64,000 nt of DNA from Lewinella sp. LCG006 (GTDB lineage Bacteria > Bacteroidota > Bacteroidia > Chitinophagales > Saprospiraceae): NCBI RefSeq assembly GCF_040784935.1, contig NZ_CP160680.1:797501-861500 (forward strand). Reading direction: 5' to 3'. The stretch's first letter is position 1. Every line of letters starts with the position of its first letter. Under the pieces are notes generated by a model. It saw only the letters and a program-made list of their open reading frames with translations. It ran no database searches and was not told the DNA's origin. Below, in pieces: positions 38,701-60,700 of this stretch. Position numbers and translations under genes: made by a program.

Positions 38701-40770
38701 TCAGATTCACTGGTGCTGGTGCGTAGCAGTAAGGGTTCAGTTTATCTTCAGGTACGATGGTCATCCAGCAAATGTTCTGGTTGCCTGACTCGTCCGTTAC
38801 CCGTAGTTCAATCGTAATTTCGTTGTTGATATCGCAGCAGTAGAAGTCGATATACTCTCCCCATGGGCTCCAGCGGTTTTCGCTAGGATCACAGGTTTCG
38901 TTGCGCCAGTAGTTACGGCGAACTTCCAGGCTTACTTCCCCACAGTTGTCCGAAGAACCTTCGTCGACCGCGGTGGCAAAGATGCGCGCGATCCCTTCGA
39001 TGCCGTTGAGCACATCACCACCACCGATCGATACGTTGAGGTCGTCGTCACAGCTGGCTGTAGGTTCGATTTCGTCGCGGATGATCAGCGTGTATTCCTC
39101 GCAGGTCTCGTTGCCACAAGCATCTTCCGCACAAAGGATCAGCGTGTGGGTACCTACGGGTACACCTACCACATCGTTATCGGCGATGTTACCGCCAGCG
39201 AAGAAGCTCTCACCGTTGGCCAGGATGGTGTAGGTTGTCGTATGTACATCTGAACAGCCGTTGCCATCGGTGATCGTTGGCGTCGGGATCAGGACATTCG
39301 CTACACAGCTCAAGGGAGAGGTAGAGATTGTCAGCGTTGGCGCTACACCCGTCAATACGGGGCCGGTGAAGTCACCGACTTTGATCAGCTGGTTCAGCGT
39401 ACCAGAGCCTCCGGGGTTACACCAGTCGATGATGTTCCACTCGCGACGCAGCTTGTAAGTGCCTTCACACACCGTGATCCGGGGCTCATCGGAGTAAGAC
39501 GCGCCGATGTTGCAGTAGATCTGATCTAGATCGTAGAAGCCAAAGGCTGTACGTATCCAGGGGTAACCAGCCGTAGATGGGTGTGGGTTGCCATTGGCAT
39601 CCGTGGCATAGTCTTCATCACATTCAATCGGCACCACAAATGGAGGGAATACAATGTCTCCAACTGTAGGCTTGCGGAAGGTAATCACCTGGTTGCAGCT
39701 TACGGTGCGTGGTGCGCCGATACATACGCCGTCGTAGCGATCGGCTACCGTGAACGTACGCGTAATGCGCTCGTCGCCACAGTCACCATCACTGTCGGTA
39801 ACATCCGACAAGGTCACCAGTACGGGGCCACAGTTGTCGCCAACTACCGGGAAACCAGTCAGGTTCACCTTGGCGATGAAGGCGTTCAAAGCAGCCGTGC
39901 TTCCACCGAAGAAGGTGTTGCGCGTAGCCGTGAAGTCAAGTGTACCATCTGCACTGGCAATCCAGCTTTGAGGCGTCTCAAAGTGGATGAAGTCGATGTC
40001 GTTACAGACCAGGTCACGAGTTTGCGTTAATGCTACTGGCGTGAAGTCTGCACCCGTTACACCGGTGTTGTTGTCCGAATAGATCGTCACCGTCCAGTCG
40101 CCGAATTGAGTTGTCAACCAGTTCGTCAGCACCAGCGTATAGCTTGTGTTCGGCTGTAAAGGCAAGCTCAAACGAAGGGTAGGATCAAAGGGGTTGCCAC
40201 CAGGGACGAAACCATCATCGGAGGAACCGAGGATATTCTCACAAGGTGACGCAGGATCGAAACCACCCTGGAACAGGAACAAGCTTCCATCGCCCCAATC
40301 CGTATCCACCAGGAAGGTATACACATCAACCGGTAGTGCAAAGTCTGGCGTCGTGAACGTAATCACATCGTAGTTGTGTACGCCGTCGGCCAGGAAGCCC
40401 TGGTTCAAACAGCTGTTGTCGTTGAAGTTCAAGGTAGCATCAGCTGCATTCAGGTTACCGCTTGCCTGGTGAGCTTCGTAATCCATCGTCACACTGCTCG
40501 TGTTGGCGGGGCAGGTAACAACAGGATCGGTCTTGTCTTCGGCGAAGATGCTGCCCCAACAGGTGTAGACGATTTCACCGTCTTCGATCAGCTCGATCAT
40601 GTAGGTGTGCTCACCACAGCCAACCGCCTGATCAGAATCCAAACCATCGACCATCAGGTTGTAGCTGTCGATACAATCGTCGAAGCCCGTCACTACCATG
40701 TCAGGGGTGATGGTTGCGGCACAGTTAGCACCCAGCGTAACGTTCAAATCAGCAATACAGCCAAATTCGA
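35762..40770 (-). repeat. Shared tail, copy 1
   Basis: Encodes the last 1670 or so residues of the 3354-residue protein and corresponds to 46702-51710 in the next gene. Between about 36250 and 39392 the two copies differ at only scattered positions and keep a constant offset of 10931 over at least 37081-39241; beyond 39392 similarity falls abruptly to the protein level. Confidence 0.9.
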
Positions 40771-43700
40771 AAGGAACAGCAGCATCGTCGATTTCTACAA
40801 TAGCGGTACAAACATCGCTGTTACCAGCACAGTCGGTGACCGTCAGTTCTACCTCTGTGCCGCCAATCGCTCCGATGGTCAGATCGATGTCTGAACAATC
40901 GAAGAAGGTCTGGTCCACCATGTAGGTGAAGTCGACATCACAGTTGTCTGAAGAACCAGCAGCGATCGCGTCAATATCGGCTTGCGTCAGCGTGTACTGA
41001 CCGCTGGCAGATAAGAAGATACGGATGGTGTTGCACACGGGAGTCGGTGCTTGGGTGTCGACCACCGTCACGACTTGCGTATGCGAAATCGGGTTACCAC
41101 AATCATCAGCGGCATCCCAGGTACGCGTCAATGTGTATTCCTGTAGACAGCCTGTATTGGTGCGCATTTCGGTGAAGCCTACCGTTACATCCGTATCACA
41201 ATTATCGGTCACCGTCAGTACTGCGGGGGCAGGGACGGCATCACATTCTACTGTTTCGTCACCAGGTAAGGCTTGATCAAATTCTGGGTCAGTGGTGTCC
41301 TCTACGGTGTAGGTAGCGACAAAGTCGGTGCTGTTATCACAATCATCCGTGACGGTGTAGGTGACGGTTGTTGTACCGGTAGTCCCACAATCGACGACAA
41401 AAGGCGCATTAGCAAAATCGCTGGTCACGCTCAGATCATCACTACAGGCGTCGGTTGCACAAGCTGCCAATGCAACAAGGTTGGCAGCATGCCACGCGGC
41501 GATGTCGTCCTGTCCACATTCTGCGCTTGCGTCGCGGTTGGCGCATCCGGTGAGATCTGGATCTGTGGTGTCTTCTACGGTGTAGGTAGCCACAAAGTCG
41601 GTGCTGTTATCACAGTCGTCCGTGACGGTGTAGGTGACGGTTGTTGTACCAGTAGTCCCACAATCGACGACAAAAGGCGCGTTAGCAAAATCGCTGGTCA
41701 CGCTCAGATCATCATCACAGGCGTCGGTTGCACAGGCTGCCAGTGCAGCAAGGTTGGCAGCATGCCACGCGGCGATGTCCTCCTGTCCACATTCTGCGCT
41801 TGCGTCGCGATTAGCACATCCGGTAAGGTCTGGATCAGTGGTGTCCTCTACGGTGTAGGTAGCCACAAAGTCGGTGCTGTTATCACAATCGTCCGTGACG
41901 GTGTAGGTGACGGTTGTTGTACCGGTAGTCCCACAATCGACGACAAAAGGCGCGTTAGCAAAATCGCTGGTTACGCTCAGATCATTACCACAGGCGTCGG
42001 TTGCACAAGCTGCCAGTGCAGCCAGGTTGGCAGCATGCCACGCGGCGATGTCGTCCTGTCCACATTCTGCACTTGCGTCGCGGTTAGCACATCCGGTAAG
42101 GTCTGGATCAGTGGTATCCTCTACGGTGTAGGTAGCCACAAAGTCGGTGCTGTTATCACAGTCATCCGTGACGGTGTAGGTAACAGTTGTTGTACCGGTA
42201 GTCCCACAATCGACGACAAAAGGCGCGTTAGCAAAATCACTGGTCACGCTCAGATCATTATCACAGGCGTCGGTTGCACAGGCTGCCAGTGCAGCAAGGT
42301 TGGCAGCATGCCACGCGGCGATGTCGTCCTGTCCACATTCTGCGCTTGCGTCGCGGTTAGCACATCCGGTAAGGTCTGGATCAGTGGTGTCCTCTACGGT
42401 GTAGGTAGCCACAAAGTCGGTGCTGTTATCACAATCATCCGTGACGGTGTAGGTAACGGTTGTTGTACCGGTAGTCCCACAATCGACGACAAAAGGCGCA
42501 TTAGCAAAATCGCTGGTCACGCTCAGATCATTACCACAGGCGTCGGTTGCACAGGCTGCCAGTGCAGCAAGGTTGGCAGCATGCCACGCGGCGATGTCGT
42601 CCTGTCCACATTCTGCACTTGCGTCGCGGTTAGCACATCCGGTAAGGTCTGGATCAGTGGTGTCCTCTACGGTGTAGGTAGCCACAAAGTCGGTGCTGTT
42701 ATCACAGTCATCCGTGACGGTGTAGGTAACGGTTGTTGTACCGGTAGTCCCACAATCGACGACAAAAGGCGCGTTAGCAAAATCACTGGTCACGCTCAGA
42801 TCATTATCACAGGCGTCGGTTGCACAGGCTGCCAGTGCAGCAAGGTTGGCAGTATGCCACGCGGCGATGTCGTCCTGTCCACATTCTGCGCTTGCGTCGC
42901 GGTTAGCACATCCGGTAAGGTCTGGATCAGTGCTATCCTCTACGGTGTAGGTAGCGACAAAGTCGGTGCTGTTATCACAATCATCCGTGACGGTGTAGGT
43001 GACGGTTGTTGTACCGGTCGTCCCACAATCGACGACAAAAGGCGCGTTAGCAAAATCGCTGGTCACGCTCAGATCATTATCACAGGCGTCGGTTGCACAA
43101 GCTGCCAGTGCAGCAAGGTTGGCAGCATGCCACGCGGCGATGTCGTCCTGTCCACATTCTGCGTTTGCGTCGCGGTTAGCACATCCGGTAAGGTCTGGGT
43201 CAGTGGTGTCCTCTACGGTGTAGGTAGCCACAAAGTCGGTGCTGTTATCACAATCATCCGTGACGGTGTAGGTAACGGTTGTTGTACCGGTAGTCCCACA
43301 ATCGACGACAAAAGGCGCGTTAGCAAAATCGCTGGTCACGCTCAGATCATTACCACAGGCGTCGGTTGCACAGGCTGCTAGTGCAGCCAGGTTGGCAGCA
43401 TGCCACGCGGCGATGTCGTCCTGTCCACATTCTGCACTTGCGTCGCGGTTAGCACATCCGGTAAGGTCTGGATCGATATTGTCGATGACGGTGATGGTCT
43501 GCATGCAGGTCGCCATCAAACCAACACCATCTGTAGCTTTGAAGGTACGTGTGACGGTGAATCGGTTGGCGCAGCTACCCGGTGTAATTACATCGCCGCC
43601 AACCTGCATAGTAGTTGCCGTACCACAGTTGTCAGTAGCAACTACATCGTCAAAATTAACAGGAGGCACCAAACTGGCACAGCTTACTATTTCATTGGCC

Positions 43701-45826
43701 GGGCAAGTAATCATGGGAGGTGTAGTATCACCTATAATAAAGGTAATATTCAATCCTGAGATGCCACTTCTACAACCGCCCTCGCTGCCTTCATAAATAG
43801 TCAAGGTATTCATGACATATGTACCTACAGGCAACCCAGGAATAAAGAAAGTTACTGTACCAGACACAACCTCAATAATACTGGAAATACCCGTAATATT
43901 AGGCCCAGATGTAGGAATGATTTCAAACGCAACTTGGGCAGTACCTGTAAAAGGCAAACCGGAGATGATCACGGTCGCGGGTGAATTAGGACAAGCATCC
44001 AGTACCATAATTTGGTTACCCGTATAAACAACCGGCACACAAGGCTCTATGATCACACTGGTTTCATCATCGTCCGCAATATTATCACCAAGATCATCAG
44101 TTTGAAACCCTGAGTTCTGATCTGAATCCGGATCTATTTGATCTGCATCCGAAATCTGGGCGTAGTTTTCCCACCCGCCGCCATTATCCAATGCCTTGGC
44201 AGTATAAGTCAGGGTAATGGAACCATTGACAGGAACGCTTAATCCCGACCAGCAATATTCGGTAAAACCACCAGAAGCTGAATTGGTGGAACTAACAGCA
44301 GGTGTTGAGCCAGACGGCGCAATGAACATAATACCGTTTGGAATAAGATCACAAACGGTAACACCCGTTGCAGGGTCTGCACCTGAATTGGTTATAGTAA
44401 GTGTATAGGTTATTACTTCGTCGAAATTAGGTTTGCTATAACTTACAGCTTTTGCTATAGAAAGGTCAGAAACCTGAAGGTTACCCAGTGTCACAGTAGC
44501 ACTTGCATTGGGAGTGATATAAGATCCCACAGTCGCATTAGCCGAGTTGGTATAAGCCGCAGGATAAGGTGTCGCAGCTGTAATTTCGACCTCGTATACC
44601 ACACTGATACTTCCTCCAACCGGCAGGTAGTAATTGTTACCAGAAATATTCTGGTTGGAAGGAAAATCACCTGCATCAAACATGATGGCACCAGTTTGTC
44701 CAAGTGTCGGGACAGAGAGTGAGTTGGAAGCTGTAATCCCACTACCGGCCATAATATCGACATATTCAAACGTTGGTGAATTGGGTAATATGTCCGTGAT
44801 TTTTTGGAAAACCAGGGGCTGAGACGATATGTTGGTTACCGTTACGGTATAAGTAACCGTAGCTGGCAATTCAGTAGCCGGGTCTGGGATATTGGTTGGA
44901 GTTACCGATTTTGAAATAGAAATGGAAGGTTGGGGGTCCGGAATGACAATGGTATTATCTCCATAGTTGCCGGTGTATTTAAACTGAGTACCGCTCAATG
45001 TAGACGCATAAGGTAAAGCATTGGTGGTGCCGGTACTGGCACATGATACATAAAAAAAGTATCTGATGGTAACAGGTATACCGCTCCCATTGGCATTGCC
45101 AGTAGCGATGTAATAGAGTTGATTTTCGGTACCCACGTTGATGCCAGGAATACTGGATGCCAACACTTCGGCATCTACCAGTTGGAAACAATCTACGTTG
45201 AAACCAGGGTTCCCGGCGGGTTGCATGTGTACCTCATCACCTGTCTTGATATTACCAAAGGAATATTCTACATCGTAATACAATAACTGACCAACAAAAA
45301 CACCCGGGCCAATTATAACACTTTCTACCAATCCCCCTGCGTTTGCGCTGATGGTAGAGCGCGTAGAGACATTCTGGTTAAATGGTGCAGGTATTGGCCC
45401 TCCTGCTCCGTTGAGGGTAACTGTAAGCGTGGCATTTGCATCAAACACTGTCGGATATTGTATAAACCAATACACTACATCGGACTGGCCGGCGTTTAAA
45501 TTGCCTCCATTACCGATTTCGACTGTAGCAGATGAGCCGCCCACCAAAGCATACCCGGCGGCACCTGATATGCTAATGGTTGCGGTCAGGTTGGTATAGT
45601 CATTGGCGGAGGTGTTGGTAATTACAAAGCCAACGTGATTAGCTGTAGGCCCTTCAGTCCCAGGCATGTTACTATCCAACTCTAAAAAGGGAGAGGTAGT
45701 GTACGTGACCGTAAGTTGGGCAAATGAGACAACACTATAAAGCGAAAATGTTGCCCATAATAGTGTACTTCGACTTAATTTAAACACTGAAGCAAAAAAA
45801 GAGGTCGTCGTAAAGTAGTGTTTCAT
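35762..45826 (-). CDS. Giant secreted repeat protein with T9SS sorting domain, 3354 residues
   Basis: The N-terminus has a long hydrophobic signal (residues about 10-36, ending VVSFAQ). Two or three DUF11-type 'conserved repeat' domains follow (about 300-600; SISKSVTPTN, DLSIAKAVSYSKPNFDEVITYTLTITNSG), then HYR-like domains, eight almost identical 91-residue Cys/Asp-rich units (785-1512), further HYR units, and from about residue 1688 a tail shared with the neighbouring giant protein. The tail carries a CUB-like stretch, a Carboxypeptidase-regulatory-like fold (VEGVEVSINGG), a dockerin-like calcium loop (ADANRSGTITTLDLIQIRK, about 3010-3030) and a T9SS-type end (FELYQNTPNPFAAATLIGF onwards). 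It should be an exported surface adhesin or filament component. One palindrome lies in frame near its end (36111-36146). Confidence 0.85.
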   Translation of the reverse strand: MKHYFTTTSFFASVFKLSRSTLLWATFSLYSVVSFAQLTVTYTTSPFLELDSNMPGTEGPTANHVGFVITNTSANDYTNLTATISISGAAGYALVGGSSATVEIGNGGNLNAGQSDVVYWFIQYPTVFDANATLTVTLNGAGGPIPAPFNQNVSTRSTISANAGGLVESVIIGPGVFVGQLLYYDVEYSFGNIKTGDEVHMQPAGNPGFNVDCFQLVDAEVLASSIPGINVGTENQLYYIATGNANGSGIPVTIRYFFYVSCASTGTTNALPYASTLSGTQFKYTGNYGDNTIVIPDPQPSISISKSVTPTNIPDPATELPATVTYTVTVTNISSQPLVFQKITDILPNSPTFEYVDIMAGSGITASNSLSVPTLGQTGAIMFDAGDFPSNQNISGNNYYLPVGGSISVVYEVEITAATPYPAAYTNSANATVGSYITPNASATVTLGNLQVSDLSIAKAVSYSKPNFDEVITYTLTITNSGADPATGVTVCDLIPNGIMFIAPSGSTPAVSSTNSASGGFTEYCWSGLSVPVNGSITLTYTAKALDNGGGWENYAQISDADQIDPDSDQNSGFQTDDLGDNIADDDETSVIIEPCVPVVYTGNQIMVLDACPNSPATVIISGLPFTGTAQVAFEIIPTSGPNITGISSIIEVVSGTVTFFIPGLPVGTYVMNTLTIYEGSEGGCRSGISGLNITFIIGDTTPPMITCPANEIVSCASLVPPVNFDDVVATDNCGTATTMQVGGDVITPGSCANRFTVTRTFKATDGVGLMATCMQTITVIDNIDPDLTGCANRDASAECGQDDIAAWHAANLAALAACATDACGNDLSVTSDFANAPFVVDCGTTGTTTVTYTVTDDCDNSTDFVATYTVEDTTDPDLTGCANRDANAECGQDDIAAWHAANLAALAACATDACDNDLSVTSDFANAPFVVDCGTTGTTTVTYTVTDDCDNSTDFVATYTVEDSTDPDLTGCANRDASAECGQDDIAAWHTANLAALAACATDACDNDLSVTSDFANAPFVVDCGTTGTTTVTYTVTDDCDNSTDFVATYTVEDTTDPDLTGCANRDASAECGQDDIAAWHAANLAALAACATDACGNDLSVTSDFANAPFVVDCGTTGTTTVTYTVTDDCDNSTDFVATYTVEDTTDPDLTGCANRDASAECGQDDIAAWHAANLAALAACATDACDNDLSVTSDFANAPFVVDCGTTGTTTVTYTVTDDCDNSTDFVATYTVEDTTDPDLTGCANRDASAECGQDDIAAWHAANLAALAACATDACGNDLSVTSDFANAPFVVDCGTTGTTTVTYTVTDDCDNSTDFVATYTVEDTTDPDLTGCANRDASAECGQEDIAAWHAANLAALAACATDACDDDLSVTSDFANAPFVVDCGTTGTTTVTYTVTDDCDNSTDFVATYTVEDTTDPDLTGCANRDASAECGQDDIAAWHAANLVALAACATDACSDDLSVTSDFANAPFVVDCGTTGTTTVTYTVTDDCDNSTDFVATYTVEDTTDPEFDQALPGDETVECDAVPAPAVLTVTDNCDTDVTVGFTEMRTNTGCLQEYTLTRTWDAADDCGNPISHTQVVTVVDTQAPTPVCNTIRIFLSASGQYTLTQADIDAIAAGSSDNCDVDFTYMVDQTFFDCSDIDLTIGAIGGTEVELTVTDCAGNSDVCTAIVEIDDAAVPFEFGCIADLNVTLGANCAATITPDMVVTGFDDCIDSYNLMVDGLDSDQAVGCGEHTYMIELIEDGEIVYTCWGSIFAEDKTDPVVTCPANTSSVTMDYEAHQASGNLNAADATLNFNDNSCLNQGFLADGVHNYDVITFTTPDFALPVDVYTFLVDTDWGDGSLFLFQGGFDPASPCENILGSSDDGFVPGGNPFDPTLRLSLPLQPNTSYTLVLTNWLTTQFGDWTVTIYSDNNTGVTGADFTPVALTQTRDLVCNDIDFIHFETPQSWIASADGTLDFTATRNTFFGGSTAALNAFIAKVNLTGFPVVGDNCGPVLVTLSDVTDSDGDCGDERITRTFTVADRYDGVCIGAPRTVSCNQVITFRKPTVGDIVFPPFVVPIECDEDYATDANGNPHPSTAGYPWIRTAFGFYDLDQIYCNIGASYSDEPRITVCEGTYKLRREWNIIDWCNPGGSGTLNQLIKVGDFTGPVLTGVAPTLTISTSPLSCVANVLIPTPTITDGNGCSDVHTTTYTILANGESFFAGGNIADNDVVGVPVGTHTLILCAEDACGNETCEEYTLIIRDEIEPTASCDDDLNVSIGGGDVLNGIEGIARIFATAVDEGSSDNCGEVSLEVRRNYWRNETCDPSENRWSPWGEYIDFYCCDINNEITIELRVTDESGNQNICWMTIVPEDKLNPYCYAPAPVNLSCNDLPLAFPGDIQTAYDEDFAATSIMMSSIFGGATGTDNCAVDTIVERTPNIQVNDCGWGTITRRFEAWQLRPEGDANGNGAIDINEVFRSTNSCSQLITITEVHDFTIDFPEDVAADCGDPEVPTIITTTAGCDVLSVNIGDPVFFTANGDACYKYSITYDVINWCVWDGEYEGLVLPRMTEDDGESLPIDRAVEGNERPVVRVVSGFGPVDNNCDNIADAQPGIQYSVVIDRDHTDRDGDSDIPNTVYDNIPGNNIGCIPADQFGRRNFGRYIYTQYVKVYDSTAPVVTVGEYGGPTANCPNLLPGQFGDDDGDCQEAVSIPFSVADECELFDLDGVLVVNIVSAQLDAFAVDANGDGDIKSNEFVADANVLSNITSNGDGTYLFTGTFPIITSAMGDNIYHAVRILFEDGCGNQTSETIVFDVIDCKGPAPVCINGLTVTLMPTPEGEGCAMAIWAADFEGSPISDCTGQGPELFGGLPRVTKYAIYRAADVEADPNFVPSPDDIGLVLTDADEQTTVVYVYAFDEEGNYDYCETYVLVQLHATCSGDETGTIAGIIMTEGNEAVEGVEVSINGGMTATMTTNTTGTYSFSNLALGGDYSVTPYLNANPLNGVTTFDIVKISKHILNVEPLVGPYKRIAADANRSGTITTLDLIQIRKLILNVITAFPNNTSWRFVDANYEFPESTNPWYETFPELINENNLPGDVLDADFVGVKIGDVNGSAQANALAGDDRTLNGTFHLQAEDIDLKAGNTYTVAVTAENLNQIEGYQGTLQLSGVELVDIEYGQAQAENFGLRFVDEGTITMSWNHNGGGTTTDVLFSLVLRASEDQPLREALSISSRYTAAEAYPSVLTDISPERGEQVFDLGIEFTNGWNIAAEFELYQNTPNPFAAATLIGFNLPEDATATVTINDASGRVLTIIKGDYAAGYNTINVTKQMIKGATGVLSYTVETRLANGEAGQAGDHRATKQMIVVD
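36111..36146 (-). repeat. Palindromic element inside the coding sequence, copy-1 tail only
   Basis: CCCCTCT (36111-36117) pairs with AGAGGGG (36140-36146); inside it TGTCC-GTAA-GGACA forms a second stem, and CTCCCCT/AGGGGAG can pair as an alternative. The aligned tail in the other giant gene lacks it and is 30 bp shorter here (10 codons). The frame is kept: the protein gains a segment between AEAY and DLGIEF. Confidence 0.75.
41291..43475 (-). repeat. Eight tandem 273-bp (91-codon) repeats
   Basis: The phrase TGCANRDASAECGQDD returns every 273 bp (matching words at 41546, 41819, 42092, 42365, 42638, 42911, 43184, 43457). Units differ at few sites, for example ACGND / ACDND / ACDDD / ACSDD, HAAN/HTAN, and GQDD/GQED. 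No unit is broken. Near identity implies recent amplification or ongoing homogenisation. Confidence 0.93.
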
Positions 45827-46701: not shown

Positions 46702-49700
46702 TTATTTTACAGCAATCATCTTCTTGGTTGCAGTGAACTCACCAGCCTGTCCGGCTTCGCCATTGGCCAGACGGGCCGTTACTGTGTAAGTCAATACACC
46801 CGTAGCACCTTGGATCATCTCCTTGGTCAAGTTGATCGTATTGTAACCAGCAGCGTAATCGCCTTTGATGATCGTCAGTACCCGTCCGCTGGCGTCGTTG
46901 ATCGTTACCGTAGCAGTTGCATCCTCAGGTAGGTTAAAGCCAATCAGGGTTGCCGCTGCAAAAGGGTTCGGCGTGTTCTGGTACAATTCAAACTCCGCAA
47001 CAGCATTCCAACCACTGGTAAATTCAATCCCCAGATCGGTCAGCTCGCCCGAGCGGTAAGCCTCCGCAGCCGTGTAACGGCTACTGATGCTCAGCGCTTC
47101 GCGCAGGGGCTGGTCTTCACTTGCTCGCAGTACCAGACTGAACAGGACATCGTCGTAGGAGACGGATTGCAATCCGTCTCTATCGCCACCGTTGTGATTC
47201 CAGCTCATGGTGATGGTGCCTTCGTCTACGAAGCGCAGGCCGAAGTTTTCAGCTTGTGCCTGTCCGTATTCGATGTCCACCAATTCCACACCGCTCAATT
47301 GCAGCGTGCCTTGGTAGCCTTCGATCTGGTTCAGGTTCTCCGCCGTCACGGCTACGGTGTAGGTATTGCCCGCCTTCAGGTCAATGTCTTCCGCTTGGAG
47401 GAGGAAGATGCCCTTCAAGGTACGATCATCGCCGGCCAAAGCATTGGCTTGGGCGCTACCGTTCACATCACCGATCTTCACACCCACGAAGTCCGCATCC
47501 AGCACATCTCCCGGGAGGTTGTTCTCATTGATCAACTCAGGGAAGGTCTCGTACCAGGGGTTCGTACTTTCCGGGAACTCGTAGTTTGCATCCACAAAGC
47601 GCCAGCTCGTATTGTTGGGGAACGCCGTGATCACGTTAAGGATCAGCTTACGGATCTGGATCAAATCCAGCGTCGTAATCGTTCCACTACGGTTGGCATC
47701 CGCGGCAATGCGCTTGTAAGGCCCAACGAGTGGCTCCACGTTGAGGATGTGCTTGGAGATCTTCACGATATCGAAGGTGGTCACTCCGTTCAGCGGGTTG
47801 GCATTCAGGTACGGTGTTACTGAGTAGTCACCTCCCAGTGTCAGGTTGCTGAAGCTGTAGGTGCCGTTTGTATTCGTGGTCATCGTAGCGGTCATGCCGC
47901 CATTGATGCTCACTTCCACGCCTTCTACCGCTTCGTTACCTTCCGTCATGATGATACCTGCAATCGTGCCGGTTTCATCACCGCTACACGTAGCGTGCAG
48001 TTGTACCAGGACATAAGTCTCACAGTAGTCGTAGTTACCTTCTTCGTCGAAGGCGTACACGTAAACCACCGTGGTCTGCTCATCCGCATCCGTCAATACC
48101 AATCCGATATCATCGGGACTTGGTACAAAGTCTGGATCAGCTTCTACATCCGCTGCGCGGTAGATCGCGTACTTCGTCACCCGTGGCAGACCGCCGAACA
48201 GTTCTGGTCCCTGACCCGTACAGTCACTGATTGGGGAACCTTCAAAGTCAGCCGCCCAGATTGCCATCGCACAACCTTCACCCTCAGGTGTTGGCATCAG
48301 CGTTACCGTCAGGCCGTTGATACAGACCGGAGCAGGGCCTTTGCAGTCGATCACATCGAAGACGATGGTCTCGCTGGTCTGGTTGCCACAGCCATCCTCA
48401 AACAGGATGCGTACCGCGTGGTAGATGTTATCACCCATCGCCGAGGTAATGATCGGGAACGTTCCTGTGAACAGGTAAGTGCCGTCACCATTGCTGGTGA
48501 TATTGCTCAGTACGTTGGCATCAGCTACAAACTCGTTCGACTTGATGTCACCGTCGCCGTTAGCGTCTACTGCGAAGGCATCCAGCTGGGCAGATACGAT
48601 GTTGACCACCAGCACACCGTCCAGGTCAAACAGTTCACACTCGTCAGCTACGCTGAATGGAATGCTGACTGCTTCCTGACAATCACCGTCGTCATCACCA
48701 AACTGACCAGGCAACAGGTTAGGACAGTTGGCCGTTGGGCCGCCGTATTCACCAACAGTTACCACTGGGGCCGTGGTGTCGTACACCTTCACGTATTGCG
48801 TGTAGATGTAGCGACCGAAGTTGCGACGTCCAAACTGATCGGCTGGAATACAACCGATGTTGTTGCCGGGGATGTTGTCGTAAACGGTGTTCGGAATATC
48901 AGAGTCTCCATCGCGGTCGGTGTGGTCACGGTCGATCACTACGCTGTACTGAATGCCCGGCTGAGCATCGGCGATGTTATCACAGTTGTTGTCTACAGGG
49001 CCAAAGCCACTCACTACCCGTACTACTGGGCGTTCGTTGCCTTCCACGGCGCGGTCAATCGGCAGCGCCTCACCGTCATCTTCCGTCATACGAGGAAGTA
49101 CGTAGCCAGTGTATTCGCCATCCCACACGCACCAGTTGATGACATCGTAGGTGATCGAGTACTTGTAGCATGCATCGCCGTTGGCAGTAAAGAAGACCGG
49201 ATCGCCGATGTTCACACTCAGCACATCACAACCAGCGGTGGTGGTGATGATCGTCGGTACTTCCGGATCGCCACAGTCAGCGGCCACATCTTCGGGGAAG
49301 TCGATGGTAAAGTCGTGGACTTCCGTGATCGTGATCAGCTGGCTACAGCTGTTCGTCGAGCGGAACACTTCGTTGATGTCGATCGCACCGTTGCCATTGG
49401 CATCGCCCTCGGGGCGCAGCTGCCAGGCTTCGAAACGACGCGTGATGGTTCCCCAGCCACAGTCGTTCACCTGGATGTTAGGCGTGCGTTCTACGATGGT
49501 GTCCACCGCACAGTTGTCCGTACCCGTAGCACCGCCGAAGATCGAGCTCATCATGATCGAGGTCGCAGCGAAGTCTTCGTCGTAAGCCGTCTGGATGTCT
49601 CCAGGGAAGGCCAGCGGAAGGTCGTTGCAGCTCAGATTCACGTTCGCCGGAGCGTAGCAGTAAGGGTTCAGTTTATCTTCAGGTACGATGGTCATCCAGC

Positions 49701-51710
49701 AAATGTTCTGGTTGCCTGACTCGTCCGTTACCCGTAGTTCAATCGTAATTTCGTTGTTGATATCGCAGCAGTAGAAGTCGATGTACTCTCCCCATGGGCT
49801 CCAGCGGTTTTCGCTAGGATCACAGGTTTCGTTGCGCCAGTAGTTACGGCGGACTTCGAGCGTTACTTCCCCACAGTTGTCCGAAGAACCTTCGTCGACT
49901 GCGGTCGCAAAGATGCGCGCGATACCTTCGATACCGTTGAGCACATCACCACCACCGATGGAGACGTTGAGGTCGTCGTCACAGCTGGCTGTAGGTTCGA
50001 TCTCGTCGCGGATGATCAGCGTGTATTCCTCGCAGGTCTCGTTGCCACAAGCATCTTCCGCACAAAGGATCAGCGTGTGGGTACCTACGGGTACACCTAC
50101 CACATCGTTATCGGCGATGTTACCGCCAGCGAAGAAGCTCTCACCGTTGGCCAGGATGGTGTAGGTTGTCGTATGTACATCAGAACAGCCATTGCCATCG
50201 GTAATCGTTGGTGTTGGGATCAACACATTCGCTACACAGCTCAAGGGAGAGGTAGAGATCGTCAGCGTTGGGGCTACACCCGTCAGGATGGGGCCGGTGA
50301 AGTCACCGACTTTGATCAGCTGGTTGTAGATGAAGGCATTGCCTGGATCACACCAATCGATGATGTTCCACTCACGACGTACCTGGTACGTGCCGGTACA
50401 TACGTTGATGCGGGGCTCATCCGAGTAGCTGGCGCCTACGTTGCAGTAGGTTTGTGCCAGGTCGAAGAAACCGGAAGCTGTCACCAAATAGGAGTAACCC
50501 GTGATGGTAGCTGCTGGGTTGTCATCAGGACCACCTACCGATCCATCGGTGGGGAAGTCTTCATCACACTCGATCACCGCCGTGAATGGTGGTACCGTAA
50601 GGTCCGTGATCGTTGGCTTGCGGATCGTGATCGTCTGGGTGCACTCATCCGTACGAGGCGTACCGATACACACGCCGTCGGCGCGATCAGCTACGCGGAA
50701 TGTACGGGTGATGGTCACATCACCACAATCGCCAGCAGCACTGACCACATCGCTAACAATTACGCTCACCGGACCACAGTTGTCACTGATTTCGGGATAA
50801 CCCGTCAGGTCGAGGATGTCGCGCAAGCTTGCCGACAGGGTACCCGGCAGGATGTTGCCATTGGCATCAACCGTATAGGTGCCCTGACCCTGGATTTGCA
50901 CCAAGTTGATATCATCACAGATCAGGTCAATCTCCACCGCCAGCGGGCCGGGAGCACCGAATGTGCCATTCAGCTGACCACCGTGGTCGCTCAGGGCAGC
51001 AATCAGGTAATCACCCAGATCGCCTGCCTGGTTGTTGGCAATCAAGATCGTATACGTCTCATTCGGACGTAGTGGCAGCGTAATGCGATAGCTTGGATCA
51101 GGGAAGGCAAACAAGCCGATCCCGAAGAAGCCATTCGCAAAAGCGTAGGTATCTTCCGTTCCTCCAATGATGTTCTGACATGGATTATCTGCATTAAATC
51201 CTCCCTGGTACAGGGCGATGTGTGCATCAAATTCAGCAGCCACCAGGAAGGTGTAGACATCCTGTCCAGCAGGTAGATCCGGAGAGGTCGTAAAGGTGTG
51301 CAGCTCGTATTGCTGACCGTTGCCGGTAGGACCAAACACATCCTGGAAACAGCTGTAATCACCCAAATCGAGTGTCGCTTCACCACCATCAAGCGATCCA
51401 TTGATCTCCTGAATGGTAAAGTCAACCGTTACCGCGTCAATATCCTCAGGACATTCAACGACAGGATCGGTCTTGTCTTCGGCGAAGATGCTGCCCCAGC
51501 AGGTGTAGACGATTTCACCGTCTTCCACAATCTGGATCATGTAGGTGTGTTCACCACAACCGGAGATCACATTGCTATCCGTTCCGTCGACCGTAATGAT
51601 GAAGTCATCAACACAGCCGTAGAGGCCCGTTAGAATCATGTCTTCCGTGATGGTAGCGCTACAGTTAGCACCCAGCGTCACGTTCAAGTTCGCGATACAA
51701 CCCAGCTCGA
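46702..51710 (-). repeat. Shared tail, copy 2
   Basis: Counterpart of 35762-40770. Nearly identical DNA over about 47190-50323; the CUB-like part (50324-51480) is recognisably homologous but clearly diverged. Confidence 0.9.
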
Positions 51711-54700
51711 TCGGAGGTTCTACAAAACCACCATCAACCGTTGGAATATCATCACCTGAGAACAGGTCGTAGAAATCCGTGGTAAACGTATTCTGATCCT
51801 GATCAGAATCCAGGGCATCGTCGCCAATATTAGGTCTTACAGCCAGTAAGATCGGTCCACACTCTTCGAGGGCCGTACTGGCATCAAAGATCACTTTGTA
51901 AGTACCAGGAGCCAGATTTTCGAACTTGTAGTAACCATTCTCATCAGTGGTTAATACCAGCATTACGGGCTGACCAATGTTATTGGTACCCATCAGGGTA
52001 ACCGTAACGCCTTCGATCGGAACATCAGGAACAGCACCAGTGCTCACCTGGGTATCGTCATTGTTCTGGTAGCTTTCATCCAACCAAACGTAGTCACCCA
52101 GTTCTGCGGGGATGTAAGCGCCGAAGTCGAAGCTCAGGTCATCCTGCATATCAGGGAAACCATTATTGCCACCAGGGTTATCGCCCGTGCCGTTCTCCCC
52201 TTCAGGTAAGCCCATCACATCTTCGATAGTGAATTCTACACCGGCATGGTCATCACTGTCGATTTCATCATCGCCAGGGATATCCGACCAAGTAGGCACA
52301 AAATCGCCAGGAAGTTCTGGAATACCGAGTGTATACGTTCCGTCGATCAAACCACAGAAGCTATATACACCGTCAACGCCATTTACATTTTGCGTCGTAG
52401 TTGTATAGCTTTGGTCATCAGCGGTACCAGCAATGCCATCAACACCGTACCAGATCAACTCTACTGTTACGTCGTTGATACCCAGCTCTGCAGCTTCGTC
52501 TTGTACACCATTACCGTTGTAGTCTTCCCAGACCAGGTTACCTACCTTGCTGAGCTTGATTTTGTAGTCTTCGATCTCACCGAAAGGTACAGCTCCCATT
52601 TGGTTATCTGGTGCAAGGCCACCATCAGGACTCAAACGAGCACGGATAAACAGTGCTCCTTCGCTGTAGGCAACAACGGCTGGTACTGGGAAGCAGTATT
52701 CTACCGCATCAACTCCGCCTACAGGGACAGTGGCATCATTGAAGACCAGTTCTTCACCAGCACCAAACATGCCGTCGCCGTTCCAATCTATCCATACTTG
52801 CAGTACCGCATCTTCATCCGTCATGTTCATCGCGGTAACCGTGATGCAGGACTCGTTGCCTGGAATCATCGGGTGGCTGAAGACGATACCATCTTCATCA
52901 CCTTCTCCTACACAATCCCCGAAGGTAAACAAGCCAGGATCGGCATCATCACCACCTTCCATCATACCCGCCATGGGTTCAGGGAAACCGTCTAGTTCTG
53001 TATCTACACAAGAACCTAGTTTTAGGCTTTCGGAGATAATATGGCGCGGCGCTTCGTCGCCCGTTGTCCCATAAGTGTCAGGTAAATCACCGTAGTCGAA
53101 ACCGATAATTTGAATCATGTAATCTTCTACCTCACCACTGTTGGCAACACCGGTGGAAGACATTACTTCGTCCATATCATTGGCCAAGCGAATACGCAGA
53201 CCTACATCCTGGCCAACTACCGCATCTGCAGGAATTGGGCCAACATTTACGGTCACTTCCGTATCACCATCAGCTACCGTAGCCGTAAATTTCTCCGTGT
53301 TTGGATCAAGGAAACCATCCTTGTTGAAATCTACATAAACAGCTATCGTAGCATCTTCTCCTGTCATGTTCATGACTGGAATCTCCAAATCGGTAGTCAA
53401 CGTAAGGATGAACAATGGAATATTGTCTAAATCCAAACCATCTTCATCGTCCACTTCATTATTATCATCACCTCCGGTGATACCAGCATCAGCACTTGGT
53501 TGACCGTCGGCTTCATCTTCTACTGCAGCACCGATTTTCAAAGTCACCATATCCTCTTCATTCGTGAGGATTTTGTGCGCAGGGCCGCCATCAGCAGCAG
53601 CTGTTTGGTAATCAGCAGGCGTGAGCGGTGCATCGGTATCCCCATTGGTGCCCGTAACGACGTCATTCAAGTCACCATAGTCGAAGCCCATCACTACGAT
53701 CTCGTAGTCTTCTATCTCACCGTCAGGCGCAACTCCTTCTGGGTTCATGCTTGCGGCCATGTCCGTACTCAGACGGATACGTAGACCCAAGTCGTCGTTC
53801 AAGGTCGCAGTAAGCGGTGGAACGATACCGTTGATTGCAGCCTCCGTATCACCGTCGGCTACCGTCGTAGCGTACATCTCGTCTGCACCAAACACACCGT
53901 CGTTGTTCCAGTCGATGAACACCGTCAACTTAGCGTCCATGCCCATCATGTTCATCACGTCAAACGTCAAGTCGATCGGTTGACCTGTTACGAACATGTA
54001 ATCACCAGGTGTGAAACCATCTTCATCCGCCCCGTCACCATCAGCATCAGCACTTGGCTGACCGTCAGCTTCATCATCGGCAGAAGCACCCAGTTTCAAC
54101 AACACCATATCCTCTTCATTCGTAATGATCTTGTGGCTTGGACCGCCGTTCGCAGACGCCGTCTCGTAGTCTTGCTCGCCTTCGCCGTCGCCAGCATCCG
54201 CCAAGTCACCATAGTCGAAGCCCATCACTACGATCTCGTAATCTTCTACCTCACCGTCAGGCGCAACACCTTCTGGGTTCATGCTTGCGGCCATGTCCGT
54301 ACTCAGACGGATACGTAGACCCAAGTCGTCGTTCAAGGTCGCGGTAAGCGGTGGAACGATGCCGTTGATTGTAGCCTCCGTATCACCGTCGGCTACCGTC
54401 GTAGCGTACATCTCGTCTGCACCAAACACACCGTCGTTGTTCCAGTCGATGAACACCGTCAACTTCGCGTCCATGCCCATCATGTTCATCACGTCAAACG
54501 TCAAGTCGATCGGTTGACCTGTTACGAACATGTAATCACCAGGTGTGAAACCATCTTCATCCGCCCCGTCACCATCTGCATCAGCACTTGACTGACCGTC
54601 AGCTTCATCATCCGCAGAAGCACCCAGTTTCAACAACACCATATCCTCTTCATTCGTAATGATCTTGTGGCTTGGACCTCCGTTCGCAGACGCCGTCTCG

Positions 54701-57700
54701 TAGTCTTGTTCGCCTTCACCGTCGCCAGCATCCGCCAAGTCACCATAGTCGAAGCCCATCACTACGACCTCGTAATCTTCTACCTCACCGTCAGGCGCAA
54801 CACCTTCCGGGTTCATGCTTGCGGCCATGTCCGTACTCAGACGGATACGCAGACCCAAGTCGTCGTTCAACGTCGCAGTAAGCGGTGGAACGATGCCGTT
54901 GATTGTAGCCTCCGTATCACCGTCGGCTACCGTCGTAGCGTACATCTCGTCTGCACCAAACACACCGTCGTTGTTCCAGTCGATGAACACCGTCAACTTC
55001 GCGTCCATGCCCATCATGTTCATCACGTCAAACGTCAAGTCGATCGGTTGACCTGTTACGAACATGTAATCACCAGGTGTGAAACCATCTTCATCTGCCC
55101 CGTCGCCATCGGCATCAACACTTGGCTGACCGTCAGCTTCATCATCCGCAGAAGCACCCAGTTTCAACAACACCATATCCTCTTCATTCGTGATGATCTT
55201 GTGGCTTGGACCGCCGTTCGCAGACGCCGTCTCGTAGTCTTGCTCGCCTTCGCCGTCGCCAGCATCCGCCAAGTCACCATAGTCGAAGCCCATCACTACG
55301 ATCTCGTAATCTTCTACCTCGCCGTCAGGCGCAACACCTTCTGGGTTCATGCTTGCGGCCATGTCCGTACTCAGACGGATACGTAGACCCAAGTCGTCGT
55401 TCAAGGTTGCGGTAAGCGGTGGAACGATGCCGTTGATTGCAGCTTCCGTATCACCGTCGGCTACCGTCGTAGCGTACATCTCGTCAGCACCAAACACACC
55501 GTCGTTGTTCCAGTCGATGAACACCGTCAACTTCGCGTCCATGCCCATCATGTTCATCACGTCAAACGTCAAGTCGATCGGTTGACCCGTTACGAACATG
55601 TAATCACCAGGTGTGAAACCATCTTCATCTGCCCCGTCACCATCAGCATCAGCACTTGGCTGACCGTCAGCTTCATCATCGGCAGAAGCACCCAGTTTCA
55701 ACAACACCATATCCTCTTCATTCGTGATGATCTTGTGGCTTGGACCGCCGTTCGCAGACGCCGTCTCGTAGTCTTGCTCGCCTTCGCCGTCGCCAGCATC
55801 CGCCAAGTCACCATAGTCGAAGCCCATCACTACGATCTCGTAATCTTCTACCTCACCGTCAGGCGCAACTCCTTCTGGGTTCATGCTTGCGGCCATGTCC
55901 GTACTCAGACGGATACGTAGACCCAAGTCGTCGTTCAAGGTCGCAGTAAGCGGTGGAACGATGCCGTTGATTGTAGCCTCCGTATCACCGTCGGCTACCG
56001 TCGTAGCGTACATCTCGTCTGCACCAAACACACCGTCGTTGTTCCAGTCGATGAACACCGTCAACTTAGCGTCCATGCCCATCATGTTCATCACGTCAAA
56101 CGTCAAGTCGATCGGTTGACCCGTTACGAACATGTAATCACCAGGTGTGAAACCATCTTCATCTGCCCCGTCGCCATCGGCATCAGCACTTGGCTGACCG
56201 TCAGCTTCATCATCGGCAGAAGCACCCAGTTTCAACAACACCATATCCTCTTCATTCGTGATGATCTTGTGGCTTGGACCTCCGTTCGCAGACGCCGTCT
56301 CGTAGTCTTGCTCGCCTTCACCGTCGCCAGCATCCGCCAAGTCACCATAGTCGAAGCCCATCACCATGATCTCGTAATCTTCTACTTCACCATCGGGCGC
56401 AGGACCTTCGGGGCTCATCACCATATCCGTCGTCAAACGAATACGGAAACCGATGTCGTCGTTCAGGGTCGCATCCAGTGGGGGGACGATGCCCATGATC
56501 GTCGCTTCGGTGTCGCCATTGGCCACTACCACGAAGTACATCTCACCCGGATCGTTGAAATCACCGTTGTTGTTCCAATCGATGTATACCGTCAACTTCG
56601 CGTCTACTCCCGTCATGTTCATTACGGGGAACGTCAGGTCGATCGGTTGACCCGTGACAAACATCTGTGCGTTGGGGTCGAAGCTATCGTCGTCGGCGCC
56701 GTCGCCGTCGGCGTCATCACTCGGTTGGCCATCAGCATCCGCATCGGCGCCGCCGCCCAATTTCAACAGCACCATATCGTTCTCATCCGTGATGATCTTG
56801 TGGCTTGGACCACCATTGGCTTCGTTCGTCTCGTAGTTGTTCTCACCAGTACCGTCGCCAGTATCCGCCAAGTCACCATAATCGAAGCCCATCACCATGA
56901 TCTCGTAATCTTCTACCTCACCATCGGGCGCAGGACCTTCAGGGCTCATCACCATATCCGTCGTCAAACGAATACGGAAGCCGATGTCGTCGTTCAAGGT
57001 CGCATCCAGTGGGGGGACGATGCCCATGATCGTTGCTTCCGTGTCGCCATTGGCAACCACTACGAAGTACATCTCGCCCGGATCATTGAAATCGCCGTTG
57101 TTGTTCCAGTCGATGTATACCGTCAACTTCGCGTCCATGCCCGTCATGTTCATTACCGGGAACGTCAGGTCTACTGACTCGCCAGCAACAAACATCTGTG
57201 CATTGGGGTCGAAGCTGTCTTCGTCGGCGCCATCGCCATCGGCATCATCACTGGGCTGGCCGTCGGCATCATCGTCCGCAGCAGCACCCAGTTTCAACAG
57301 CACCATATCGTTCTCATCCGTGATGATCTTGTGGCTTGGGCCGCCGTTGGCTCCGTTCGTCTCGTAGTTGTTCTCGCCGGTACCGTCACCAGTATCCGCC
57401 AAGTCACCATAGTCGAAGCCCATCACCATGATCTCGTAATCTTCTACCTCACCATCGGGCGCAGGACCTTCGGGGCTCATCACCATATCCGTTGTCAAAC
57501 GAATACGGAAGCCGATGTCGTCGTTCAAGGTTGCATCCAGTGGGGGGACGATGCCCATGATCGTCGCTTCGGTGTCGCCATTGGCCACTACTACGAAGTA
57601 CATCTCGCCCGGATCGTTGAAATCACCGTTGTTGTTCCAGTCGATGTATACTGTCAACTTCGCGTCTACTCCCGTCATGTTCATCACCGGGAAGGTTAAG

Positions 57701-60700
57701 TCGATCGGTTGACCCGTGACAAACATCTGTGCGTTGGGGTCGAAGCTATCGTCGTCGGCGCCGTCGCCATCAGCGTCATCACTCGGTTGACCATCAGCAT
57801 CCGCATCGGCGGCGCCGCCCAATTTCAACAGCACCATATCGTTCTCATCCGTGATGATCTTGTGGCTTGGACCACCATTGGCTTCGTTCGTCTCGTAGTT
57901 GTTCTCACCAGTACCGTCGCCAGTATCTGCCAAGTCACCATAGTCGAAGCCCATCACCATGATCTCGTAATCTTCTACCTCACCATCGGGCGCAGGACCT
58001 TCAGGGCTCATCACCATATCCGTCGTCAAACGAATACGGAAACCGATGTCGTCGTTCAAGGTCGCATCCAGTGGGGGGACGATGCCCATGATCGTTGCTT
58101 CCGTGTCGCCATTGGCAACCACTACGAAGTACATCTCGCCCGGATCATTGAAATCGCCGTTGTTGTTCCAGTCGATGTATACTGTCAACTTCGCGTCCAT
58201 ACCTGTCATGTTCATTACCGGGAACGTCAGGTCTACTGACTCGCCAGCAACAAACATCTGTGCATTGGGGTCGAAGCTGTCTTCGTCGGCACCGTCACCG
58301 TCGGCATCATCACTGGGCTGGCCATCGGCATCATCGTCCGCAGCAGCACCCAGTTTCAGCAGCACCATATCGTTCTCATCCGTGATGATCTTGTGGCTCG
58401 GACCGCCGTTGGCTCCGTTCGTCTCGTAGTTGTTCTCGCCAGTACCGTCGCCAGTATCCGCCAAGTCACCATAATCGAAGCCCATCACCATGATCTCGTA
58501 ATCTTCTACTTCTCCATCGGGCGCAGGACCTTCAGGGCTCATCACCACATCCGTCGTCAAACGAATACGGAAACCGATGTCGTCGTTCAGGGTCGCATCC
58601 AGTGGGGGGACGATGCCCATGATCGTCGCTTCGGTGTCGCCGTTGGCCACTACTACGAAGTACATCTCACCCGGATCGTTGAAATCACCGTTGTTGTTCC
58701 AATCGATGTATACCGTCAACTTCGCGTCTACTCCCGTCATGTTCATTACGGGGAACGTCAGGTCGATCGGTTGACCCGTGACAAACATCTGTGCGTTGGG
58801 GTCGAAGCTATCGTCGTCGGCACCGTCGCCGTCGGCGTCATCACTCGGTTGGCCATCAGCATCCGCATCGGCGGCGCCGCCCAATTTCAACAGCACCATA
58901 TCGTTCTCATCCGTGATGATCTTGTGGCTTGGACCACCGTTGGCTTCGTTCGTCTCGTAGTTGTTCTCGCCAGTACCGTCGCCAGTATCCGCCAAGTCAC
59001 CATAGTCGAAGCCCATCACCATGATCTCGTAATCTTCTACCTCACCATCGGGCGCAGGACCTTCAGGACTCATCACCATATCCGTTGTCAAACGAATACG
59101 GAAGCCGATGTCGTCGTTCAAAGTCGCATCCAGTGGGGGGACGATGCCCATGATCGTCGCTTCCGTGTCGCCATTGGCCACTACTACGAAGTACATCTCA
59201 CCGGGATCGTTGAAATCGCCGTTGTTGTTCCAGTCGATGTATACCGTCAACTTCGCGTCCATGCCCGTCATGTTCATTACCGGGAACGTCAGGTCTACTG
59301 ACTCGCCAGCAACAAACATCTGTGCATTGGGGTCGAAGCTGTCTTCGTCGGCACCGTCACCGTCGGCATCATCACTGGGCTGGCCATCGGCATCATCGTC
59401 CGCAGCAGCACCCAGTTTCAACAGCACCATATCGTTCTCATCCGTGATGATTTTGTGGCTTGGGCCGCCGTTGGCTCCGTTCGTCTCGTAGTTGTTCTCG
59501 CCAGTACCGTCGCCAGTATCCGCCAAGTCACCATAATCGAAGCCCATCACCATGATCTCGTAATCTTCTACCTCACCATCGGGCGCAGGACCTTCAGGGC
59601 TCATCACCATATCCGTTGTCAAACGAATACGGAAGCCGATGTCATCGTTCAGGGTCGCATCCAGTGGGGGGACGATGCCCATGATCGTCGCTTCGGTGTC
59701 GCCATTGGCCACTACTACGAAGTACATCTCACCGGGATCGTTGAAATCACCGTTGTTGTTCCAGTCGATGTATACCGTCAACTTCGCGTCCATACCCGTC
59801 ATGTTCATTACCGGGAACGTCAGGTCGATCGGTTGACCCGTTACAAACATCTGTGCGTTGGGGTCGAAGCTATCGTCGTCGGCGCCGTCGCCATCAGCGT
59901 CATCACTCGGTTGGCCATCAGCATCCGCATCGGCGGCGCCGCCCAATTTTAACAGCACCATATCGTTCTCATCCGTGATGATCTTGTGGCTTGGACCACC
60001 ATTGGCTTCGTTCGTCTCGTAGTTGTTCTCGCCAGTACCGTCGCCAGTATCCGCCAAGTCACCATAATCGAAGCCCATCACCATGATCTCGTAATCTTCT
60101 ACCTCACCATCGGGCGCAGGGCCTTCAGGACTCATCACCATATCCGTTGTCAAACGAATACGGAAGCCGATGTCGTCGTTCAAAGTCGCATCCAGTGGGG
60201 GGACGATGCCCATGATCGTCGCTTCCGTGTCGCCATTGGCCACTACTACGAAGTACATCTCACCGGGATCGTTGAAATCGCCGTTGTTGTTCCAGTCGAT
60301 GTATACCGTCAACTTCGCGTCCATGCCCGTCATGTTCATTACCGGGAACGTCAGGTCTACTGACTCGCCAGCAACAAACATCTGTGCATTGGGGTCGAAG
60401 CTGTCTTCGTCGGCACCGTCACCGTCGGCATCATCACTAGGTTGGCCGTCGGCATCATCGTCCGCAGCAGCACCCAGTTTCAACAGCACCATATCGTTCT
60501 CATCCGTGATGATCTTGTGGCTCGGGCCGCCGTTGGCTCCGTTCGTCTCGTAGTTGTTCTCGCCGGTACCGTCACCAGTATCCGCCAAGTCACCATAATC
60601 GAAGCCCATCACCATGATCTCGTAATCTTCTACCTCACCATCGGGCGCAGGACCTTCGGGACTCATCACCACATCCGTCGTCAAACGAATACGGAAGCCG

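Follow-up and report, generated by a model that had tools for sequence, protein, structure and literature searches.

A perfect palindrome in frame in a giant secreted-protein gene of Lewinella sp. LCG006 is a probable REP-type element

How does a perfect palindrome come to be translated as part of a giant secreted protein, and does it belong to a mobile family or did it arise where it lies? The window analysed here, a stretch of 64,000 nucleotides (797501-861500 of the one-contig, 7.5-Mb genome of Lewinella sp. LCG006), raises this question through the 22-bp sequence GAGACGGATTGCAATCCGTCTC at 47159-47180, whose 11-bp arms meet without a spacer. A preliminary description had reported this perfect palindrome, its in-frame position in a gene of at least 5765 codons, and its absence from the tail of the neighbouring giant gene. 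All three statements hold: the gene is a minus-strand open frame (46702-63999), and the aligned tails agree that the neighbour (35762-45826) lacks the palindrome. The features concerned are listed below.

46702..63999, minus strand: first giant gene, carrying site S1; 5765 codons in the window, 6570 aa as an open frame in the whole genome
47159..47180, minus strand: site S1, palindrome GAGACGGATTG/CAATCCGTCTC, translated in ...NHNGG-DRDGLQSVSYD-DVLFSLV...; the peptide stretch encoded across the repeat is DRDGLQSVSYDDVLF
47155..47158, plus strand: GTAG foot, directly before the S1 palindrome
47180-47183, plus strand: opposite foot of S1, reading CTAT where C[TC]AC is expected
47153..47185, minus strand: 33-nt tract that replaces 12 nt of the neighbouring tail, a net gain of 21 bp
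46744..46773, minus strand: site S6 of the window gene, a 30-nt in-frame extra stretch within ARLANGEAGQAG
35762..45826, minus strand: neighbouring giant gene with a paralogous tail; S1 empty, S2 occupied
36109..36146, minus strand: site S2, a different hairpin repeat (CTCCCCT CTC AGGGGAG and GTCC GTAA GGAC), in frame; the first giant gene lacks S2
35804..35833, minus strand: copy of site S6 in the neighbouring giant gene

The neighbouring tail is 89% identical to the S1 tail over 261 alignment columns, and the difference between them at S1 amounts to a net 21 bp, or seven codons, as the preliminary description had it. It is not the clean presence or absence that was proposed, because 33 nt in one tail correspond to 12 nt of different sequence in the other. 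Nor can the neighbouring tail be taken as an untouched empty allele, because it carries a hairpin repeat of its own, in frame, at 36109-36146. As single-stranded DNA, the S1 region (47150-47190) folds at -9.6 kcal/mol, with a z-score of -3.8. The encoded tail has a weak dockerin match in a profile search and a weak match to the T9SS type A sorting domain TIGR04183 (18.5 bits against a cut-off of 23); S1 lies ahead of this sorting domain and outside it. A loop between two beta segments had also been proposed for the insert. In a two-sequence AlphaFold model, predicted strands 81-86 and 104-112 do flank residues 92-102, which is suggestive of a loop only, as the pLDDT of 48 makes the model too poor for use and short of confirmation.

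Within the 2.06 Mb of the genome that was sampled, perfect palindromes with arms of at least 10 bp and spacers of at most 3 bp occur 39 times, as against nine in the control, a single Markov-simulated sequence. This excess, together with the outer ends that many palindromes have in common, rules out a chance palindrome. No part of the window matched Rfam at gathering scores.

The common outer ends define a family with fixed termini, GTAGAGACG...CGTCTCTAC, around a variable, self-complementary core. A family built on the exact core was considered and dropped after a scan of the order, in which the 20-bp inner form AGACGGATT...AATCCGTCT was found in one of 198 genomes, that of Lewinella sp. LCG006 itself; the family becomes visible only when the core is left free. 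Likewise, the inner 18 bases of GAGACGGATTGCAATCCGTCTC have one exact match in the genome. The preliminary description had regarded uniqueness in the genome as an argument against itself: the exact word is indeed unique, but the family with other cores is not. The pattern AGACG-N9-11-CGTCT occurs at 39 sites in this genome, against 21 for a backwards control, and core pairing reaches at least 4/5 (or 4/4) at 20 of them, 3/5 at 15 and less at four. The family is thus multicopy and dispersed, with 35 of the 39 sites pairing at 3/5 or better, or at 4/4. Six sites lie in giant tails, every one in the RD....VS frame. Judged by open frames alone, with no gene caller, the other 33 divide into 22 outside any open frame of at least 200 codons and 11 inside one; four of these 11 have largely unpaired cores and are probably background.

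Beyond this genome, the full form TAGAGACG-N4-14-CGTCTCTA, a search pattern that itself fixes the CTA of the 3' foot, has matches in 47 of the 296 phylum genomes scanned, and the backwards control in five. Among the matches listed, 77 sites in 25 genomes hold 54 distinct cores, in which 210 of 265 pairs are complementary, against 107 +- 8.5 when the halves are shuffled. The exact 20-mer recurs in Tenacibaculum finnmarkense and in metagenome-assembled genomes of Mucilaginibacter, Chitinophagaceae, Moraniibacteriota and Gracilibacteria, and four of these five genomes carry at least one full outer end with it. The GTAG foot also limits how such a palindrome can be translated: it places TAG in one of the three frames, so that only VETxxxxSL and RDxxxxVS remain, and coding copies with this foot are indeed found in the VET....SL and RD....VS frames. 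That only two frames are used is a consequence of the sequence and does not in itself point to selection.

The history of the site can be read from the tail family. Searching the genome with the 423-aa tail gave 35 matches, not all of them full-length; of the 30 retrieved, 23 were aligned, and L065 and L067-L072 were excluded as partial or distant. Extra or replaced in-frame sequence occurs at six sites (S1-S6). S1, S3 and S5 hold members of the AGACG...CGTCT family, and the repeats at S2, S4 and S6 are of three other types, S2 being the one of the three that was folded. S6, where tails L054 and L056 differ by 30 nt, appears by eye to be an imperfect hairpin. S1 is occupied in the window tail (L043) and in L049, L050 and L052, and is degenerate in L055; its cores are GATTGCAATC, GATTGACATC or the degenerate CGATGCATCT, all in frame. 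S3 has the core CTTTGCAAAG and S5 the core GATTGACATC, both again in frame, and the S5 core of L051 and L052 is the same as the S1 core of L050 and L052. At S3, L054 and L056 differ by a palindrome with no change in length, so sequence must have been replaced there. Cores GATTGCAATC and GATTGACATC have no copy in this genome outside the giant tails, and may therefore have spread by recombination.

A tree of 19 tails was built with four distant rows left out, the insert columns excluded and L061 as the root. None of the six sites is occupied in its basal tails (L058-L061 and L053), and the fewest changes required are four at S1, four at S2, two at S3, five at S4, two at S5 and four at S6. The converse of an insertion, a shorter tail that has lost an ancestral palindrome, finds no support in this distribution, in which S1 is present in only five of the 19 tails and the basal ones are empty. 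L057 is empty yet nested on the tree, so loss or gene conversion also takes place. Within the 2.06-Mb sample, the exact S2 and S6 motifs were not found outside the tails, where one looser S2-like copy occurs (L028).

Several related sequences came to light. An S2-like repeat, CCCCTCTGTCC...GGACATCTCCCCT, is present in six viral-contig stretches (L301-L306), twice in L305, and is therefore a cross-species repeat. The tail matches L065, L067 and L068 contain internal stop codons and are decayed members of the giant-gene family, and L063 (G000:C1:1517439-1518617) is a tail paralog within an open frame of 13,315 codons.

Where do palindromes of the AGACG family enter reading frames in other genomes? 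A survey of 44 further stretches and 30 loci, drawn from the matches listed, which do not extend to G287 (42 sites) and G303 (24), covered 30 genomes and gave 78 sites that differ in their surroundings. Most of these (59) fall between genes or within short frames; the remainder comprise six in-frame copies in RAYT genes (identified by motif), eight in frame in a T9SS sorting domain and five in other open frames, so that the T9SS loop and the loop after the HUH motif of RAYTs hold 14 of the 19 open-frame copies. All eight T9SS copies sit at one place, after ...YPNPFNPTTTIKYSIP and ahead of VTLKVYDxLGREV or close variants of it, in five genomes (G362, G306, G229, two in G447 and three in G214); these are numbers of copies and not rates per T9SS gene. 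TIGR04183 scores above its cut-off of 23 bits in all eight carriers, as it does in the Lewinella tails L051 and L052, and none of the eight has the halves of the domain in different frames. Six of the copies were compared, and their 150-nt flanks are 25-61% identical without gaps, so these six are not recent duplicates of a single gene. Immediately 3' of the palindrome, the three in G214 have a stretch that is nearly the same in all, which makes local gene conversion possible among them. Within the Lewinella tails, S4 and S5 appear, by eye from the alignment, to fall in the same loop; S1 does not.

What is new is the in-frame placement of eight of the 78 copies, from five other genomes, in a single loop of the T9SS sorting domain; searches of open-licence literature turned up no description of REPs lying in frame in such domains or in giant T9SS proteins. 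A further proposal, whose chances we regard as evenly balanced, is that across the phylum RAYT-type palindromes land in frame again and again in this loop of the type A domain (after ...NPFNPTTTIKYSIP). The T9SS sorting domain is removed after secretion, and insertions might be cheap in a domain that is cut off, which is perhaps why copies would collect there. A scan of viral contigs, covering 80 of at least 120 stretches, together with 30 phylum loci gave 106 sites, of which 23 are in open frames that continue for 50 codons or more in both directions. Sixteen of these 23 are in viral-contig stretches, which makes it harder to maintain that nearly all open-frame copies fall in the RAYT and T9SS loops.

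The association with RAYT genes points to a class of enzyme that could move such palindromes. A Y1 transposase (Pfam) is encoded in 11 of 12 palindrome-bearing genomes, and three of the 30 Y1 loci fetched from those 12 genomes hold an AGACG palindrome (L230, L238 and L246). G287 contains the full form 42 times, and one palindrome occurs there on both flanks of a RAYT gene (L230); in G274 an AGACG palindrome lies in frame within two RAYT genes. A fragment of such a gene that ends just after the HUH motif, and hence contains no palindrome, was used as the query against 395 genomes and matched in 165. The sample consisted of the best 30 of these 165, one per genome, as the nearest kin of the query and including its own locus (L270), plus the RAYT of the Lewinella genome. 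In this sample a palindrome follows the HUH codons at a distance of no more than 150 nt in every gene (31/31), where the rest of the frame would predict 0.04 palindromes per gene and sequence outside it 0.09. The palindrome is of the AGACG...CGTCT type in 12 of the 31, and others have related ends such as AGACT, GGGGC or GGGAC; that of L279 is AT-rich and may be a chance match, and the L282 gene has stop codons further upstream. In L291, L293 and L294 the core of a flanking palindrome is the same as that of the inner one.

Two in-frame palindromes after the HUH motif were observed in L274, L275, L276, L287, L291, L299 and L300. The last of these (G000:C1:4932451-4932690), with GGGCAGAC...GTCTGCCC and GGGCGAAC...GTTCGCCC in frame, is the one RAYT of the palindrome-bearing kind in the Lewinella genome, and it scores 58.4 bits against NCBIfam REP_Tyr_transpos (cut-off 80). 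Its palindromes are of the GTAGGGGC type instead of the AGACG type, and none of the four Y1 loci above the Pfam cut-off in this genome is flanked by an AGACG palindrome. No RAYT with an AGACG palindrome, and so no mobiliser for the window copy, was found there.

Much of this has precedent. Quentin et al. (2018; PMC6006769) place double-foot REPs (feet GT[AG]G and C[TC]AC) with TnpA_REP subclass 2.4, whose RAYT genes, from hosts including Bacteroidetes and Cyanobacteria, carry palindromes in frame after the HuH motif. Our 31 of 31 RAYT genes agree with that account (PMC6006769), and by resemblance in their NHxH motif, host range and inserted palindromes they would belong to subclass 2.4. The window copy is like the double-foot REPs described there in having GTAG as the 5' foot of a long hairpin. 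At the 3' foot, where C[TC]AC is expected, it reads CTAT, and this replacement makes its second foot imperfect; on the coding strand, the window tail, L050 and L052 have CTAC or CCAC after one extra base, and S1 of L050 and L052 reads GTAG...CCAC. It differs from those elements in sitting within a giant secreted protein, away from any RAYT. The same repeat in or beside a RAYT of the same genome, a feature of that system as described, was not found here, whereas AGACG palindromes show it in other genomes; the likeness is thus one of sequence and does not extend to a transposase of this genome's own.

The preliminary description had likened the palindrome to the Rickettsia palindromic elements, and the likeness extends to behaviour: dispersed copies, in-frame insertion in a protein gene, and paralogs of which some have the site filled and others empty. 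The two do not appear to belong to one family. RPE-4 and RPE-6 of Rickettsia conorii are characterised by Di Nocera et al. (2013; PMC3733652) as REPs tagged at one end by an unpaired CGTC and without an associated transposase, and the same source (PMC3733652) describes REPs in frame within protein genes, some of them hit at two sites. Compared with that description, CGTC is here inside the stem, the foot is GTAG, and related palindromes are RAYT-associated. In sequence terms, then, the window palindrome is best classed as a REP-type element of another family that acts like the Rickettsia ones. Overall, the earlier observation is partly confirmed and the interpretation placed on it partly supported. 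Between them, the two papers already cover double-foot REPs as well as REPs that lie inside RAYT genes or in frame in genes of other kinds. A further parallel may be found in Nostoc, in which Elhai and colleagues are said to have reported, in 2008, small dispersed repeats of 21-27 nt, with compensatory changes and nested insertions; the present family would resemble them in these respects.

We consider it very probable that the palindrome is a copy of a small GTAG-footed, REP-type mobile element of the TnpA_REP/RAYT kind, which was tolerated in frame and then spread among the tails. TnpA_REP/RAYT proteins are HUH enzymes acting on single-stranded hairpin DNA. A transposase of this type would act on the single-stranded hairpin and scatter copies widely, and one such copy would have entered a gene for a giant T9SS-type secreted protein. 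It survived, we suggest, because its net length change was a multiple of three and the frame in use had no stop codon. Further hops, gene duplication and gene conversion would then have carried copies among the paralogous tails, recombination having likely contributed to this spread within the giant tails. This account builds on ends and a self-complementary core common to a family, an in-frame position, sites that are occupied in some paralogs and empty in others, basal tails that are empty, and a link to RAYT genes in other genomes. To these it adds that a RAYT presumably did the moving, and that selection may have done nothing beyond filtering tolerated frames, with no function for the repeat. 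Several observations weigh against it: S1 has neither a clean junction nor a target duplication, the window copy is imperfect at its second foot, S3 involves no length change, and the cores GATTGCAATC and GATTGACATC are confined to tails in this genome. In addition, L300 carries other palindromes, the four Y1 loci of this genome lack AGACG palindromes on their flanks, and only three of 30 such loci elsewhere contain the palindrome.

Some of the same observations bear on other explanations. The insertions could be old, and their later spread between tails due to duplication and conversion only, with no recent transposition. The confinement of the GATTGACATC core to giant tails, the restriction of the exact S2 and S6 motifs to tails within the 2.06 Mb (one looser S2-like copy, L028, being outside), and the two to five changes per site on the tree, a number expected from conversion, all accord with this possibility. 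It is nevertheless doubtful, as one palindrome family occupies S1, S3 and S5, and conversion at a single site cannot yield three sites. Replication slippage or template switching could also have created the palindrome where it lies, outside any mobile family. This would explain both the uniqueness of the exact word and the untidy exchange at S1. We think it highly improbable, given that the ends and spacing match a family present in 47 of 296 genomes and that the exact 20-mer recurs in five other named genomes, four of which have at least one full outer end.

A further alternative is that the hairpin might be retained for a role in the mRNA or protein, such as translation pausing or a tunable loop, beyond mere tolerance. 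Such a role could account for a tail family that carries four types of repeat, at six sites, in its C-terminal part, for the repeated use of one loop in several T9SS proteins, and for the presence of a palindrome in every RAYT sampled. We judge it unlikely, since 14 of the 19 tails on the tree do without S1 and the cores are free to vary provided that pairing holds. Insertion of a REP-type element that was tolerated in frame thus remains the reading that we prefer.

In-frame REP insertions are known, but known examples are scattered. If the sorting-domain loop is a recurrent site, in a domain that is removed, then mobile hairpins can remodel coding sequence cheaply, and natural pairs of occupied and empty genes would be available for testing transposases of the RAYT class. 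There is also a warning here for annotation: peptides resembling RDGLQSVS or VETGHAPSL in Bacteroidota proteins can be translated repeats and not conserved motifs.

Two minor observations concern other palindromes in the Lewinella genome. A Y1 transposase gene (L079, G000:C1:1240579-1243917) has similar GTAGGATG...TCCTAC palindromes on both sides, in a REPtron-like arrangement that belongs to another family. Very long perfect palindromes are found at G000:C1:1642206-1642282, 64194-64251 and 688092-688142, with arms of 38, 28 and 25 bp respectively, and the last of these surrounds an AGACG palindrome.
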